A stretch of DNA of 34,828 bases from a virus: the IMG/VR virus record IMGVR_UViG_3300010373_000032, positions 1 to 34,828 of that record. One strand, 5' to 3'. Position 1 is the stretch's first letter. Each line of letters begins with the position of its first letter. Below the pieces are notes generated by a model. The model was not told where the DNA came from, searched no databases, and saw nothing but the letters and a program-made list of their open reading frames with translations. Positions 1,008 to 34,828 of the stretch are shown here, piece after piece. The translations under genes and the position numbers were made by a program.

Positions 1008-1091
1008 GGCCCCGTAGCTCAATGGAAGAGCACCGCGCGAGGACCGTGCCCGCGTAGGAGGTCGCAGATTCGAAATCTGCCGGGGCCGCCA
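1008..1091 (+). tRNA. tRNA-like gene with abnormal anticodon arm
   Basis: The acceptor stem is perfect (GGCCCCG 1008-1014 with CGGGGCC 1081-1087), followed by a discriminator G and encoded CCA. The D arm (GCTC/GAGC) and the T arm (GCAGA-TTCGAAA-TCTGC) are canonical. Between D and T arms, where one expects a 5-bp stem, a 7-nt loop with T33 and a short variable region, the sequence runs CCGCG, about 13 nt, CGCG, then TAGGAGGTC. I find no 17-nt anticodon arm with T33, so no amino acid can be assigned. At 84 nt it is about 8 nt longer than a class I tRNA. It may be a decayed gene, a gene with an insertion in the anticodon arm, or a tRNA mimic. Confidence 0.6.
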
Positions 1092-1208: not shown

Positions 1209-1219
1209 ACATAAAATAA

Positions 1220-1254
1220 GCGGCGAGATAAACCGAACAGTCAAACCTCGCCGC
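1220..1254 (-). terminator. Rho-independent-like terminator of the leftward operon
   Basis: Read leftward, GCGGCGAG (1254-1247) and CTCGCCGC (1227-1220) form a perfect 8-bp stem around a 19-nt loop, followed by a T-rich tail TTATTTTAT. It lies 28 nt past the last small ORF (stop at 1282) and just before tRNA-Asn. It may end or attenuate early transcription. The long loop makes it less than ideal. Confidence 0.5.
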
Positions 1255-1281
1255 CATCTCTCGACACCATGTCGAAAATCT

Positions 1282-1362
1282 TCAGCGCCTTCGAAAAATA
1301 TCCCATGTGATGAACGCTAAAATCGGAATTACAAATCCAAGAGCAAACATAACCTGGTTCAT
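1282..1362 (-). CDS. 26-residue membrane peptide
   Basis: ATG at 1362 is preceded by GGAAAG at good spacing, and the ORF ends with TGA at 1284-1282. The peptide MNQVMFALGFVIPILAFITW is one hydrophobic span followed by the positive tail DIFRRR, a typical N-out/C-in single-pass topology. It is the last protein gene of the leftward operon and sits just past the structured stretch at 1381-1586. It resembles no family I can name. A small toxin-like or lysis-modulating peptide is possible but not shown. Confidence 0.5.
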   Translation of the reverse strand: MNQVMFALGFVIPILAFITWDIFRRR

Positions 1363-1380: not shown

Positions 1381-1586
1381 GCGGCAGGACCGGTGGAAGA
1401 AATTTTCATGCCCTTCCGCTACAAGGGTATGTCCACCGACTTGAGTGCCTTGCGAGGCAACCTGCCGCTCCGATTATCCTGAGTGCCGGGCTTGAGTACC
1501 GGCTTCTGGCTATTCAATGCCCGCCGAATTTACGGCGACGCTATCCAGACCGTTGACCGTGCGTGTCCTTCCACGCCGACTCAGGA
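1381..1586. ncRNA. Candidate structured RNA: 3-way then 4-way junction
   Basis: This non-coding stretch between two tiny genes folds into two closed domains. Domain 1: 1381-1388 pairs with 1461-1468 (8 bp, GCGGCAGG/CCTGCCGC) around two arms. One is 1391-1397 with 1432-1438 plus 1407-1415 with 1423-1431. The other is 1446-1450 with 1455-1459. Domain 2: 1477-1484 pairs with 1579-1586 (8 bp, TCCTGAGT/ACTCAGGA) around 1485-1489 with 1499-1503, 1505-1512 with 1542-1549, 1522-1526 with 1533-1537, and 1561-1565 with 1572-1576. Strand is uncertain. One G.U pair (1410/1428) and a UGCG tetraloop (1451-1454) favour the plus strand, yet the neighbouring genes are leftward. No family was recognised. Confidence 0.5.
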
Positions 1587-4802: not shown

Positions 4803-5707
4803 GATTCCCATCCGGGCAGAAGCCACGAGACTTTCTTTTTAATTTCTCGATACTCTTTTGGACCTACGATATCGATTCTTACATCTGGGTAATATCTCTT
4901 CATGCGATCGAGCTTCGTTTTGCTCTTTGGGTCCATCCATCCCTTAACTTCGACATAGTATGGAGGAAGGGCTTCTGAGTCCCAGATCTTAAAATCCGGA
5001 GTATAAAAACGGCACCCGCGTTTGATTTTTTCGAACCAAAACGTGTCAGCCTCGAATTCCCACCTATGAACTTCTCCGTGTTTAATTAGAAAATTAAGAT
5101 AACGGGCATAATTGGCTTCCCATGCGGATCTAAAATAAACTCCGCCCAAGTCTTCTCGCTTGCCCTTTTTGGATCGTGAATATCTCGGATGAAGCCTTTT
5201 CTCGAATTGATATCTTGCAGAGTTGTCACTTTTAAGCTGAAGCATCTGTTCGGAATTAAAAATATGGTTCGGGTCGGACCATGCCGCCTTGCACTTATCC
5301 GACATTTTCTTAAGTGATTGTTCAGAATGCTTCTGCCCGGTAAATCCTTTTGGGTGTTTGAACCTGGACCATTTACCGACGTGACCGGAATGAATCCCGT
5401 GTTTAGAAAACCAACCCTCCACGGCTCGAGCAGAAACATTAAATTTCTCTGCCACCGTCATTGTAGAAACTGGGTGATTAGCCTTTACCCAATCTTGAAT
5501 CTCTTGAGTAAATCCACTAGTAAAACCCTTGTATGGTGGTACTTTCTTGTACCCCATGTCTTTCCTCATTCGGTTGAGAGTAACTTCAGAAACTCCAAGC
5601 ATAATAGAAATCTGAGAATCAATCGGAGCCGGTTTTCTATTGTCGATTGCTCTAAGCATTTCCATTTTCTCTAATCTTCTTTTTTTTTGAGTTTCACTCC
5701 TTGGCAT
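4799..5707 (-). CDS. PD-(D/E)XK nuclease with HTH and NUMOD3-like modules (homing endonuclease)
   Basis: The protein has 302 residues. Two HTH-like segments come first: about 28-52 (DSQISIMLGVSEVTLNRMRK) and about 78-104 (STMTVAEKFNVSARAVEGWF). Then comes a NUMOD3-like segment (GFTGQKHSEQSLKKMSDKCK, about 121-140), a DNA-binding repeat typical of homing endonucleases. The C-terminal half is a PD-(D/E)XK nuclease with RSAWE (E197), FYTPDF (D238) and YVEVKG (E253, K255), a full metal-dependent active-site set. A likely role is a free-standing mobile endonuclease. Acting as exonuclease partner of the annealing protein at 7800-8573 is a weaker alternative. The gene is preceded by a long non-coding structured region, and its stop couples to the next gene. 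Confidence 0.8.
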   Translation of the reverse strand: MPRSETQKKRRLEKMEMLRAIDNRKPAPIDSQISIMLGVSEVTLNRMRKDMGYKKVPPYKGFTSGFTQEIQDWVKANHPVSTMTVAEKFNVSARAVEGWFSKHGIHSGHVGKWSRFKHPKGFTGQKHSEQSLKKMSDKCKAAWSDPNHIFNSEQMLQLKSDNSARYQFEKRLHPRYSRSKKGKREDLGGVYFRSAWEANYARYLNFLIKHGEVHRWEFEADTFWFEKIKRGCRFYTPDFKIWDSEALPPYYVEVKGWMDPKSKTKLDRMKRYYPDVRIDIVGPKEYREIKKKVSWLLPGWES

Positions 5708-5742
5708 ATATCCTTCTCTCTCTAAATATGTGTTCGCTTAAC

Positions 5743-6008
5743 CCTCTCAAACATTCTGACCCAGAGGCCCGAGCTGAGCACAAAGCAATACCAACGTAGC
5801 GATTACTCGCCGTACTGCCTTGATGCGTAAAGCACTTCTGACCCTTCGGCCGTCGCCTTCACACACACCTAAGCGATGACACACGCTTTCGGCGGATGGC
5901 TTCACTTCCGGGTGTATGCATCACCCAGCGGTTACAGCGCAGATCCAATCCCAGTCTCTCAACCGGCAATACCCTGCTCTTGGTCCCTAGAACTCTCCGA
6001 TAGGACCA
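5743..6008 (-). ncRNA. Candidate structured RNA upstream of the homing nuclease
   Basis: About 300 nt lie between the nuclease start (5707) and attP without a plausible gene. Read leftward they contain TGGTCC plus TA (6008-6001) pairing with 5989-5981 with one bulged base, CGGTT/AACCG (5961-5965 with 5929-5933), GGGTG/CACCC (5922-5926 with 5910-5914), and an extended hairpin. The hairpin has CAAGGCA (5822-5816) paired with TGCTTTG (5787-5781), continuing into GCGA-GTAA-TCGC with a GUAA (GNRA) tetraloop. Further down is CCTCT/AGAGG (5767-5763 with 5747-5743). The G.U pair and GNRA loop exist only on the minus strand. No group I P7 (GACUA/UAGUC) or group II domain V was found. Confidence 0.5.
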
Positions 6009-6163
6009 CTACTCACTCAGCGTCCGTTGTTTGAATCTCCAACACTGAATGCACTACCCACTTCGATTGTCTTGGTTTCCATTCCGAACGCACGACCGCG
6101 ACCATGGTCGATAGAAAATGCAATTCGCCCGTTGGGCTCTTTCGCATGAAATTTGGATATTTT

Positions 6164-6183: not shown

Positions 6184-6297
6184 GAGAGGGGAAAAGAGGC
6201 CTAAAACACCGTAATTCGTGAAAACGAAAAAACGGGCTTACGCACAGGTAATCACTACGGAATGATATGAATTCAGTGACTTGTGAAAGAGAGTGGT

Positions 6298-6360
6298 TAG
6301 GACTTAAAATCCTGGGCCCCGATAAGGGGCGTGCCGGTTCGATTCCGGCCCTAGGCACCA
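6298..6360 (+). other. attP core: 3' part of tRNA-Leu(UAA)
   Basis: The segment carries the anticodon arm TAGGA-CTTAAAA-TCCTG (anticodon TAA at 6305-6307), a long variable arm closed by GCCCC/GGGGC, a T arm GCCGG-TTCGATT-CCGGC, the 3' acceptor strand CCTAGGC, discriminator A and CCA ending at 6360. No matching 5' acceptor strand GCCTAGG or D arm is present upstream, so it is not a complete gene. It sits 14 bp from the integrase stop. Phages that integrate into tRNA genes carry exactly such a 3' segment to rebuild the host gene, so this is the probable attP identity block, and the host attB should be tRNA-Leu(UAA). Confidence 0.88.
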
Positions 6361-14442: not shown

Positions 14443-14674
14443 GAAGCCCATCATGGTCGACGCTTTCCGTTACAACGTAGATTCAACTCCTGATTGGTTC
14501 AAGGATGAAAAGGCGGTTGTTCACGCGCTTAAGATCGATAGCGATACGGTTTTTTACACTCGAGAGGGTCAAGTCGTCGCTCACAACGGTGATTGGATCG
14601 TCAGAGATTACGCTGGCGATATCCGTTCGCATACTCCAGAAGCTTTTGAGCAAAACTACGAAAAGATCCAATGA
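14429..14674 (+). CDS. Conserved phage protein (81 aa)
   Basis: The product MKFLKKPIMVDAFRYNVDST ... ends NGDWIVRDYAGDIRSHTPEA followed by FEQNYEKIQ. This GDWIVR...P..FE..YE pattern is shared by a common small phage protein of unknown function. GGGTGA precedes ATG 14429. The stop overlaps the terminase start by ATGA. Confidence 0.75.
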   Translation: MKFLKKPIMVDAFRYNVDSTPDWFKDEKAVVHALKIDSDTVFYTREGQVVAHNGDWIVRDYAGDIRSHTPEAFEQNYEKIQ

Positions 14675-16257
14675 ACCAGGCGGAGATTCTAGAAGAGCTT
14701 CACCTGAGCGAAGAGATCGACAGACGCAGGGTCGCGCGTACTGTGGATTGCTCAAAACTCACTAAGCAAGAAGCGCACGAGGTTTACGTAAGGATTATCG
14801 ACTCTCGAAACATCGATGCCGAAAGAAAACTATGTAAAACGGATTTGTTCTTTCTCATCGTATACGCAATGAACAGACGGGATGTCGATCACGATTGGCT
14901 CTATGCGAGATGCAGAGAGGTTAACGCTAATCCTGATGGGTTTTTGGATCTTTGGGCTCGTGACCATTACAAATCCACGATTATCACATTCGCTAAAACC
15001 ATTCAGGACATCTTAAACGATCCTGAAGTTACGGTTGGCATATTCAGTCACACGCGTCCCATCGCGAAAGCCTTCTTAGATCAAATCAAGCGTGAGTTTG
15101 AATCAAACGAAAGATTGAAAGAGCTCTTCCCTGAAATCCTCTACGCAAAACCAGAGACCGAATCACCCAAGTGGTCTTTAGATGGCGGCATCATCGTTAA
15201 GCGAAAGACAAACCCAAAAGAAGCGACAGTTGAAGCTTGGGGACTAGTCGATGGTCAACCGACCTCGCGACACTTTAGTCATCAAGTTTACGACGATGTT
15301 GTGACGTTAGAATCAGTTTCAACTCCTGATCAGATTGCAAAGACCACTCGCGCTTGGGAATTGTCACTAAACCTTGGATCAGGTGAACGAACGAAGCGGA
15401 GATACATCGGCACTCGCTATCACGTGAACGATACTTATCGCGCAATGATGGACCGAGAATCAGTTATCCCTAGAATCAAGCCCGCAACGGATAATGGGAA
15501 ATCCCCGCCTGAAGGAAAGCCGGTCTTTCTTTCTGAGGAAGTCTTACTCAAGAAACGCCGCGATCAAGGTCCCTATATCTTTGGCACGCAGCAATTACAG
15601 AATCCTGTCGCCGATAACGCGATGTCGTTTAAGCGCGAATGGCTAAAATATTACAAGACTCTGGGCGACACATCACGCTGGAATAAATATCTGATCGTTG
15701 ATCCCGCGAATTCTAAGAAGAGAACAAGCGATTACACAGTCATGGTCGTGATTGGGCTATCACCTGATCAGAACTACTACAGGCTTTACGGATTTAGAGA
15801 TCGTCTTAACCTCACTCAGCGAGCCGATAAACTCATGGAGCTTCACCGTGAGTGGCAGCCAAAACAAGTGGGTTACGAGAAGTACGGCATGCAGTCAGAC
15901 ATCGAGCATATCAAGTATGTGATGGAGCAAAAGAACTACCGCTTCAATATCGTAGAGCTTGGCGGATCTATCTCAAAAGAAGACCGAATCAAGAAACTTA
16001 TCCCAGTCTACGAGCAGGGTCGCTACTACTCGGCCGAGCGACAGTCGTTTGTCGATTATGAGGGAATCACCCGAGATTACGTCCAACTCTTCTTAGACAA
16101 CGAGTATCTCGCGTTTCCGGTTTGTGTGCATGACGACATGCTTGATTGCGAGTCGCGTATCATGGATCCAGATCTAAATGCAGAGTTTCCGAAAGAGGCA
16201 CCTAAGAAAACACAACGATCACAATCATACTCCGGCACCGGAAGCTGGATGGGATGA
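14671..16257 (+). CDS. terL: Terminase large subunit
   Basis: The protein has 528 residues. The ATPase half has a Walker-A-like WARDHYKST (about 95-103) and Walker B VYDDVVT (about 207-213). The nuclease half starts LIVDPANSKKRTSDYTV with D344 and ends with VHDDMLD near residue 490, the RNase H-like metal ligands. It powers DNA translocation into the procapsid and cuts the DNA. The deviant Walker A (no GKT) is usual for this terminase branch. It follows terS and precedes a short virion-protein gene. Confidence 0.95.
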   Translation: MNQAEILEELHLSEEIDRRRVARTVDCSKLTKQEAHEVYVRIIDSRNIDAERKLCKTDLFFLIVYAMNRRDVDHDWLYARCREVNANPDGFLDLWARDHYKSTIITFAKTIQDILNDPEVTVGIFSHTRPIAKAFLDQIKREFESNERLKELFPEILYAKPETESPKWSLDGGIIVKRKTNPKEATVEAWGLVDGQPTSRHFSHQVYDDVVTLESVSTPDQIAKTTRAWELSLNLGSGERTKRRYIGTRYHVNDTYRAMMDRESVIPRIKPATDNGKSPPEGKPVFLSEEVLLKKRRDQGPYIFGTQQLQNPVADNAMSFKREWLKYYKTLGDTSRWNKYLIVDPANSKKRTSDYTVMVVIGLSPDQNYYRLYGFRDRLNLTQRADKLMELHREWQPKQVGYEKYGMQSDIEHIKYVMEQKNYRFNIVELGGSISKEDRIKKLIPVYEQGRYYSAERQSFVDYEGITRDYVQLFLDNEYLAFPVCVHDDMLDCESRIMDPDLNAEFPKEAPKKTQRSQSYSGTGSWMG

Positions 16258-29676: not shown

Positions 29677-29946
29677 ATGGCAAATAAAAGTGTTAGCGTA
29701 AACGTTCAGGATTCGGCTTACGACCTAATGGAAGGTCTGGCAGCTGTTGCTATGGCAGTGAAAGCTGCAAAAGCAAGCGGCGTGGCCGCTGAAGTTGAGG
29801 CTGGTGTGGTGGCTGCAATTTCTGCTTTCTCGTCGAAAGTATCTGAACTCCAAAACTTGAAATCGGATCTCTTGGCAGATCATTCCGGCTTCTATCGCGG
29901 AATTGTTCTCGGCGCTCAGGACTTGATTCAGGACCTTCTCGCCTAA
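29677..29946 (+). CDS. Hypothetical helical protein (89 aa)
   Basis: AAAGGAAAA precedes ATG 29677. The product is alanine/valine-rich and helical (AYDLMEGLAAVAMAVKAAKA, then GVAAEVEAGVVAAISAFSSK) and ends GIVLGAQDLIQDLLA. Hydrophobicity is moderate rather than clearly transmembrane. It may be a virion internal protein, but no family was recognised. Confidence 0.65.
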   Translation: MANKSVSVNVQDSAYDLMEGLAAVAMAVKAAKASGVAAEVEAGVVAAISAFSSKVSELQNLKSDLLADHSGFYRGIVLGAQDLIQDLLA

Positions 29947-29950
29947 TTCC

Positions 29951-30112
29951 ATGACAAGCCGGCAAGAGTTTATTTTGAAGCTCATGAAGGAGGGCCGAGA
30001 GTGGGTGAAACTCATCCATCCGGCTCTCCTCACCGGCATAGTTGGATGGCATTTGAAAACTCCACCTTGGTCAGACTGGATCGCGTCTAAATTCCGAAAG
30101 ACAAATCCATGA
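29951..30112 (+). CDS. Small protein (53 aa), possible membrane-associated
   Basis: The ORF starts at ATG 29951 and ends in an ATGA overlap with the cupin gene. The product is MTSRQEFILKLMKEGREWVK LIHPALLTGIVGWHL..., amphipathic with a short hydrophobic stretch, then a basic tail (WIASKFRKTNP). It fills the gap exactly and is coupled to the next gene, which is the main support. No Shine-Dalgarno is obvious. Confidence 0.5.
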   Translation: MTSRQEFILKLMKEGREWVKLIHPALLTGIVGWHLKTPPWSDWIASKFRKTNP

Positions 30113-34639: not shown

Positions 34640-34828
34640 ATCTATCACCACTTCTAAAACAGAGGTTCTTTGATGCAAACGGGCTTCCGCTCGCAGGAGG
34701 CCTTCTCTATTCATACGCAGCAGGAACCACCACTCCTCAGGTGACGTATTCGAATTCGACTGGAACAACGAACACTAATCCAGTTGTGCTTGATTCAAGC
34801 GGATATGCCGATGTTTGGCTCGATCCAA
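34636..34828 (+). CDS. Tail fibre, 5' part (continues at base 1)
   Basis: ATG 34636 overlaps the preceding stop (ATGA). The first 35 residues, MNLSPLLKQRFFDANGLPLA GGLLYSYAAGTTTPQ, belong to the anchor domain described for the fibre gene. Bases 34706-34828 duplicate bases 1-123, so the full gene is read by joining 34636-34705 to 1-992. Confidence 0.9.
   Translation, partial: MNLSPLLKQRFFDANGLPLAGGLLYSYAAGTTTPQVTYSNSTGTTNTNPVVLDSSGYADVWLDP
34706..34828. repeat. 123-bp terminal direct repeat, right copy
   Basis: Identical to bases 1-123 and in frame with them, it marks where the linear sequence closes into a circle. Confidence 0.97.

Follow-up and report, generated by a model that had tools for sequence, protein, structure and literature searches.

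An unclassified phage RNA family with two conserved hairpins and a hypervariable insert

The window analysed here is the whole of the IMG/VR record IMGVR_UViG_3300010373_000032, 34,828 nt in length. Positions 1–123 are identical to 34706–34828, and given this 123-nt terminal repeat the genome is probably complete, either circular or terminally redundant, though IMG/VR calls the record linear; a tail-fibre gene spans the record ends. Proteins of the phage include a P22-like portal, a terminase and a tyrosine integrase. A partial tRNA-Leu(UAA)-like 3′ segment on the plus strand (6277–6358) adjoins the integrase gene and is the probable attP, and the terminase (14671–16257), 53–55 per cent identical to those of MAGs from Micavibrio and other alphaproteobacteria, hints at an alphaproteobacterial host.

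The structured stretch considered here lies beyond the tail-fibre gene as well as two tRNA genes, and ahead of a terminator-like hairpin, between leftward ORFs of 30 and 26 aa (1622–1714 and 1282–1362, both minus strand). These tiny flanking ORFs are hydrophobic, and their products look like type I toxins or holin-like small membrane peptides. In the same part of the record, a tRNA-like gene with a CCA (1008–1088, plus strand) scores 46.7 bits against the Rfam tRNA model; its anticodon region is abnormal and enlarged, and ARAGORN makes no call. A check of the window sequence and its folding found all of the stems that had been named at 1381–1586 in an earlier note, and these stems are two unequal things, domain 1 and domain 2, which together with their immediate neighbours comprise the following features.

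1579–1586, minus strand: 5′ strand of the closing stem P1 of domain 2 (UCCUGAGU), pairing exactly with 1477–1484 and covarying in the family
1577–1578, minus strand: two-nucleotide linker CG between P1 and hairpin A
1561–1576, minus strand: hairpin A (GCGUG-GAAGGA-CACGC), D-arm-like, with a GAxGGA loop; all five pairs covary
1504–1560, minus strand: hypervariable insert, 57 nt here
1545–1549/1505–1509 and 1533–1537/1522–1526, minus strand: inner helices of the insert, from folding
1485–1503, minus strand: hairpin B (GCCGG-UACUCAAGC-CCGGC), T-arm-like, stacked directly on P1, its stem covarying in two family members
1477–1484, minus strand: 3′ strand of P1 (ACUCAGGA), from pairing and family comparison
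1375–1474, tentatively placed on the minus strand and in the element: domain 1, a separate three-way junction that folds well, its closing stem 1381–1388/1461–1468 extending through a symmetric internal loop to 1375–1388/1461–1474
1282–1362, minus strand: program-called ORF for the 26-aa hydrophobic peptide, with the Shine–Dalgarno sequence AAAGGAAAG, directly downstream of domain 1
1217–1256, minus strand: intrinsic-terminator-like hairpin (GCGGCGAG/CUCGCCGC, then U-rich), from folding

The last of these was missed by a pattern scan because its loop is long, and as modelled it would terminate a leftward transcript.

On each strand the structured stretch folds with lower energy than any of 200 dinucleotide-shuffled versions (z of −6.0 on the plus strand and −3.9 on the minus strand). 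However, some other scanning windows of the same phage reach z values of −5 to −6.5 (genome-wide scan, 25 shuffles each), and a stretch at 29720–30109, considered as a third structured RNA and rejected as coding, reaches −4.0. Folding energy alone is thus weak evidence in this phage, and homology was needed. The stems had earlier been read as a three-way followed by a four-way junction; the pairings themselves stand, but the four-way junction is retained only in the minimum free energy structure of the minus strand, while that of the plus strand has one long hairpin in its place. Elsewhere in the record, a second non-coding, multi-branched structured stretch (5706–6020, minus strand, −112.6 kcal/mol, z about −2.8 on the minus and −1.1 on the plus strand) lies just upstream of a 302-aa endonuclease/resolvase-like gene, and no relative of it was found by Rfam, blastn or nhmmer.

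Several routes to homologues gave nothing. Direct blastn of 231 nt against phage records, nhmmer over the fetched loci and a long exact pattern of the inter-domain segment had no match to the structured stretch, and the neighbouring proteins as bait brought in no relatives. Rfam, at gathering as well as loose thresholds, has nothing on the element, which bears out the earlier claim of a structured non-coding RNA matching no Rfam family. The motif YTGAGTRCC does occur three times in the stretch, as had been counted, but the triple TGAGTRCC pattern was rejected as a family marker, its matches elsewhere being 9-nt-phased, coding-looking repeats that do not accompany this RNA. Such long phased DNA repeats with TGAGTRCC are present in many phage contigs (L002–L121) and probably encode repetitive virion proteins.

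A covariance model, R1, was built from the minus strand of this one sequence and applied to genomes in which related portal genes occur; its one strong match (32.1 bits, E 1.4e-4), designated L323, lies on a contig of Rhizorhabdus histidinilytica that bears a prophage with a P22-like portal. The alignment spans domain 2 and retains GGCGUGGAxGGACACGC and AAGCCGGUAnUCAAGCCCGGC, while the closing stem UCCUGAGU/ACUCAGGA of the window becomes UGAUGCGG/CUGCAUCA; read by eye, P1 differs by four two-sided compensations and one change from G-C to G.U, in the minus-strand sense. Run on 398 genomes of the order to which the Rhizorhabdus homologue belongs, under stricter filters that missed L323 itself, R1 gave no convincing match.

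The family came into view on scanning IMG/VR with the pattern AGCCGGTN{2,4}CAAGCCCGGC, which matched at least 120 stretches with the same architecture around them, apart from a minority of chance coding matches. At least about 100 phage contigs in IMG/VR carry members, so that domain 2 is not the orphan that had been offered as one option. Among the 104 distinct listed matches with a family-type loop, hairpin A with its GAxGGA lies upstream in 93 and a P1 of at least 6 bp is present in 79, in 77 of which the linker is exactly 2 nt. A further model, R3, from which both the window and L323 were left out, recovers the window at 1476–1587 on the minus strand with 31.7 bits and E 3.2e-5, the E-values of such short-calibrated models being rough. 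Weak matches of a model R2 in large genome sets (L462–L464, L466 and L467) came from a first-pass screen that scored too few candidates and are not claimed. Of 398 Pseudomonadota species genomes, six have hairpin A, and three of the six (G531, G576 and G589) have the family element; no member was found in the E. coli genomes searched.

The family layout consists of P1 (variable, mostly 7–10 bp), the two-nucleotide linker, hairpin A, the insert, and hairpin B in the form GCCGG-U[A]UCAAGC-CCGGC set directly on P1. The window element has each of these parts, including the GAxGGA loop of hairpin A, the U[N]YCAAGC loop of hairpin B and the absence of any gap before the 3′ strand of P1. In the 40-member core alignment, whose seed was selected by pattern, 96.4 per cent of pair cells are paired, as against 30–38 per cent with the partners slid; there are 193 two-sided changes where shuffling gives 55, and the covariation score is 0.663, compared with 0.155 for shuffled and 0.04–0.12 for slid controls. 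Two-sided changes occur at every pair of P1 and hairpin A. Covariation in homologues, which the earlier note had proposed as a check, is thereby seen for the domain 2 family. The search pattern prescribed the sequence of hairpin B, and since most members were recovered through it, the apparent conservation of this hairpin is biased; its compensated pairs come from L465 (GCCAG/CUGGC), from an Acidobacteriota-centred search, and L468 (GCAGG/CCUGC), found without the hairpin B pattern.

Homology thus settles the point that domain 2, judged on these sequence comparisons, is a conserved structured RNA, and it is a member of a previously unclassified phage RNA family absent from Rfam 15 (4227 families). 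In Rfam searches of 13 loci with pattern matches or homologues, no family reached its gathering score over the element, and the locus L422 gave only weak matches at a loose threshold, among them c-di-GMP-II-GCG at 22.1 bits. No description of the RNA family was found in the open-access literature, and a published or supplementary mention elsewhere is possible. There is very little doubt about the family, structure and strand of domain 2.

The inserts are between 45 and 280 nt long and nearly all unrelated to one another, sequence being shared only within a few related groups; for the insert of the window itself (1504–1560) no homologue was found in the 4.6 Mb of fetched loci. One insert is common to L421, L433 and L436 and another to L338 and L422, while the closing stems differ, as if insert modules were inherited or swapped separately from the closing stem. 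Three inserts (L323, L403 and L431) contain tRNA-like sequences, and the short insert of L361, from its sequence read by eye, can form an H-type pseudoknot. In L385, an insertion lies within the loop of hairpin A itself.

Homologues exist for domain 2 only; domain 1 has none in the same 4.6 Mb, and the single two-domain RNA that had been proposed is thus unsupported. On the minus strand a tandem GA/GA mismatch, a motif common in RNA, forms the internal loop of domain 1, and about 12 nt separate the end of the domain from the start of the small ORF 1282–1362. Domain 1 may be a leader in its own right for that 26-aa ORF, or an extension specific to this phage.

Phages and prophages from several bacterial phyla share the layout, and members are also present in bacterial genomes; every annotated record leaves the element unannotated. 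In Caulobacter phage DMCA and Pseudanabaena phage Pan3 it occupies a gap between convergent genes, in Komagataeibacter phages phiKX1 and phiKX2 a gap adjoining tRNA-Met, and in a Roseomonas plasmid a gap near a lysis-type hydrolase. A tyrosine integrase is encoded on 20 of 38 longer contigs among the pattern matches listed, which suggests that many element-bearing hosts are temperate. The RNA was not found in any of 48 relatives by portal or head protein, many of which are fragmentary, and this absence together with the sparse occurrence indicates that the element acts as accessory cargo that moves horizontally. What appear to be tandem copies of the RNA, identified by flanking sequence and model matches, are present in single phage contigs at L368, L434 and L442, and at L357 a Burkholderiales-2 RNA (RF02917, 1542–1615) shares a phage contig with a family member.

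The setting of the window might suggest a cis-regulatory leader, a riboswitch or an attenuator, that serves the gene for the small membrane peptide at 1282–1362, given that the structured stretch ends just upstream of a Shine–Dalgarno sequence and start codon, and in about 10 of 85 members GGAG...ATG likewise follows within 20 nt. However, the flanking genes of the family occur in all four orientations with no preference (16/13/11/10), the DMCA and Pan3 copies lie between convergent genes, and no conserved downstream gene was seen among the family loci. A leader role is therefore possible in a minority of members and unlikely as the explanation of the element. The extended −10 motif TGnTA has 13 matches at −17 to −12 from P1, as against 1.2 ± 0.9 per window elsewhere, an enrichment of about tenfold, and its position would put the start of transcription near the base of P1; in the window itself there is no good −10 motif at the expected place. 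T-runs are enriched within 80 nt downstream of the RNA. The promoter motif in a subset of members and the random orientation of neighbours together argue that the RNA is an independent transcript rather than a leader, and on these motifs that is the likely state of affairs.

The family motif, the −10 motif, the G.U excess and the four-way junction all indicate the minus strand, which for domain 2 is the direction of the early operon. The plus-strand preference expressed earlier had been based on a single G.U pair and a UGCG loop, both in domain 1, and is reversed by these results. In the modelled orientation G.U outnumbers A.C mismatches by about 17 to 2, which is partly a selection effect, and by 4 to 0 in the unselected pairs 6–7. 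It might still be supposed that the long near-perfect closing repeats and the sporadic, mobile distribution reflect a DNA-level inverted repeat that works as a folded single strand, whether as a recombination site or as a packaging or replication signal; however, the G.U excess argues against this, as do a promoter motif and T-runs that both lie on the modelled strand, and such a DNA element is highly improbable.

Among known RNAs a close likeness is to tmRNA, in which an acceptor-like stem and D-like and T-like arms are likewise combined with a long insert replacing the anticodon arm. The D-arm comparison draws on the GG in the loop of hairpin A, the T-arm comparison on the 5-bp, G-C-closed stem of hairpin B and its U..YCAAGC loop. 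The linker and stacking geometry fit tRNA, and tRNA genes lie within 1 kb of the element in 10 of 88 cases, and it could thus be argued that the RNA is a genuine relative of tRNA or tmRNA that has degenerated yet is still aminoacylated or takes part in trans-translation. Yet P1 length peaks at 8 bp rather than the 7 bp of an acceptor, no clear CCA enrichment follows P1, and the T-like loop is of 8 nt or more, with 1–3 extra nucleotides in all members found, and these departures weaken the tRNA reading. The element differs from tmRNA further in its 5-bp hairpin A, its hypervariable insert without shared sequence and the lack of a known tag frame; neither ARAGORN, the RF00005 tRNA cut-off nor the Rfam tmRNA families make a call on it. 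By CCA, acceptor length, T-loop and database criteria, as read from sequence, the element is not a tRNA or tmRNA, and descent of this kind with retained function is quite improbable.

HDV-like theta ribozymes have the nested double pseudoknot of HDV, and no such core is apparent in the element. The likeness is that both are small structured phage RNAs linked to tRNAs, theta ribozymes lying beside phage tRNAs (PMC10879173). Hairpin B (GCCGGU..CAAGCCCGG), with its U..CAAGC loop on a CCGG stem, recalls the P4 hairpin of type-P5 twister (RF02684), to which two members have weak matches (15.6 bits for the window and 16.1 for L422), so that a twister-related self-cleaving ribozyme might be considered. 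These scores fall far under the gathering value of 37.6 with much of the model skipped, the rest of the catalytic core is absent, the family core has no conserved UAA cleavage-site segment, and the closing stem comes directly after hairpin B; a ribozyme of this type would seem very improbable. GOLLD and ROOL are likewise structured RNAs of phages and prophages, with unknown function and often located close to tRNAs, and GOLLD sometimes carries tRNAs in its linker region (PMC12286853). With many members above 800 nt (PMC12286853), GOLLD is much larger than this element, and no covariance-model match to either was obtained. Membership of a known large-RNA class, another of the earlier options, is not borne out, there being no Rfam match to HEARO, GOLLD, ROOL or group I or II introns.

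The best overall explanation, to which a probability of about 0.55 is attached, is that of a phage-borne, tRNA-like clamp RNA that would present a payload in trans. In many members the RNA would be transcribed as a separate unit from the foot of P1 onwards, and with such a start the 5′ end would be sealed in a helix. Hairpins A and B might then dock in the manner of a tRNA elbow, the GG of GAxGGA with the YC of U[A]YCAAGC; covariation is silent on this elbow because the docking residues are nearly invariant, and the odds on it are about even. Docking would give a nuclease-resistant tRNA-like clamp in which a different payload sits in place of the anticodon arm, and the RNA would work in trans, either in lysogens or in the course of infection. 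Its role could be the delivery of a stable antisense, aptamer or decoy payload or the engagement of tRNA-handling host or defence proteins, and a payload or decoy role is offered tentatively. More speculative still is a widespread natural tRNA-scaffold, in which an autonomous tRNA-mimicking clamp with a swappable payload would work against tRNA-handling host or defence factors or serve as a trans-acting platform.

The conservation of the hairpins across unrelated phages implies a strong, shared function, and a clamp that is conserved while its insert is hypervariable points to either a natural scaffold for displaying RNA or a decoy in the phage–host arms race. Since isolated phages (Caulobacter DMCA, Komagataeibacter phiKX1 and Pseudanabaena Pan3) carry the RNA, it is experimentally accessible.
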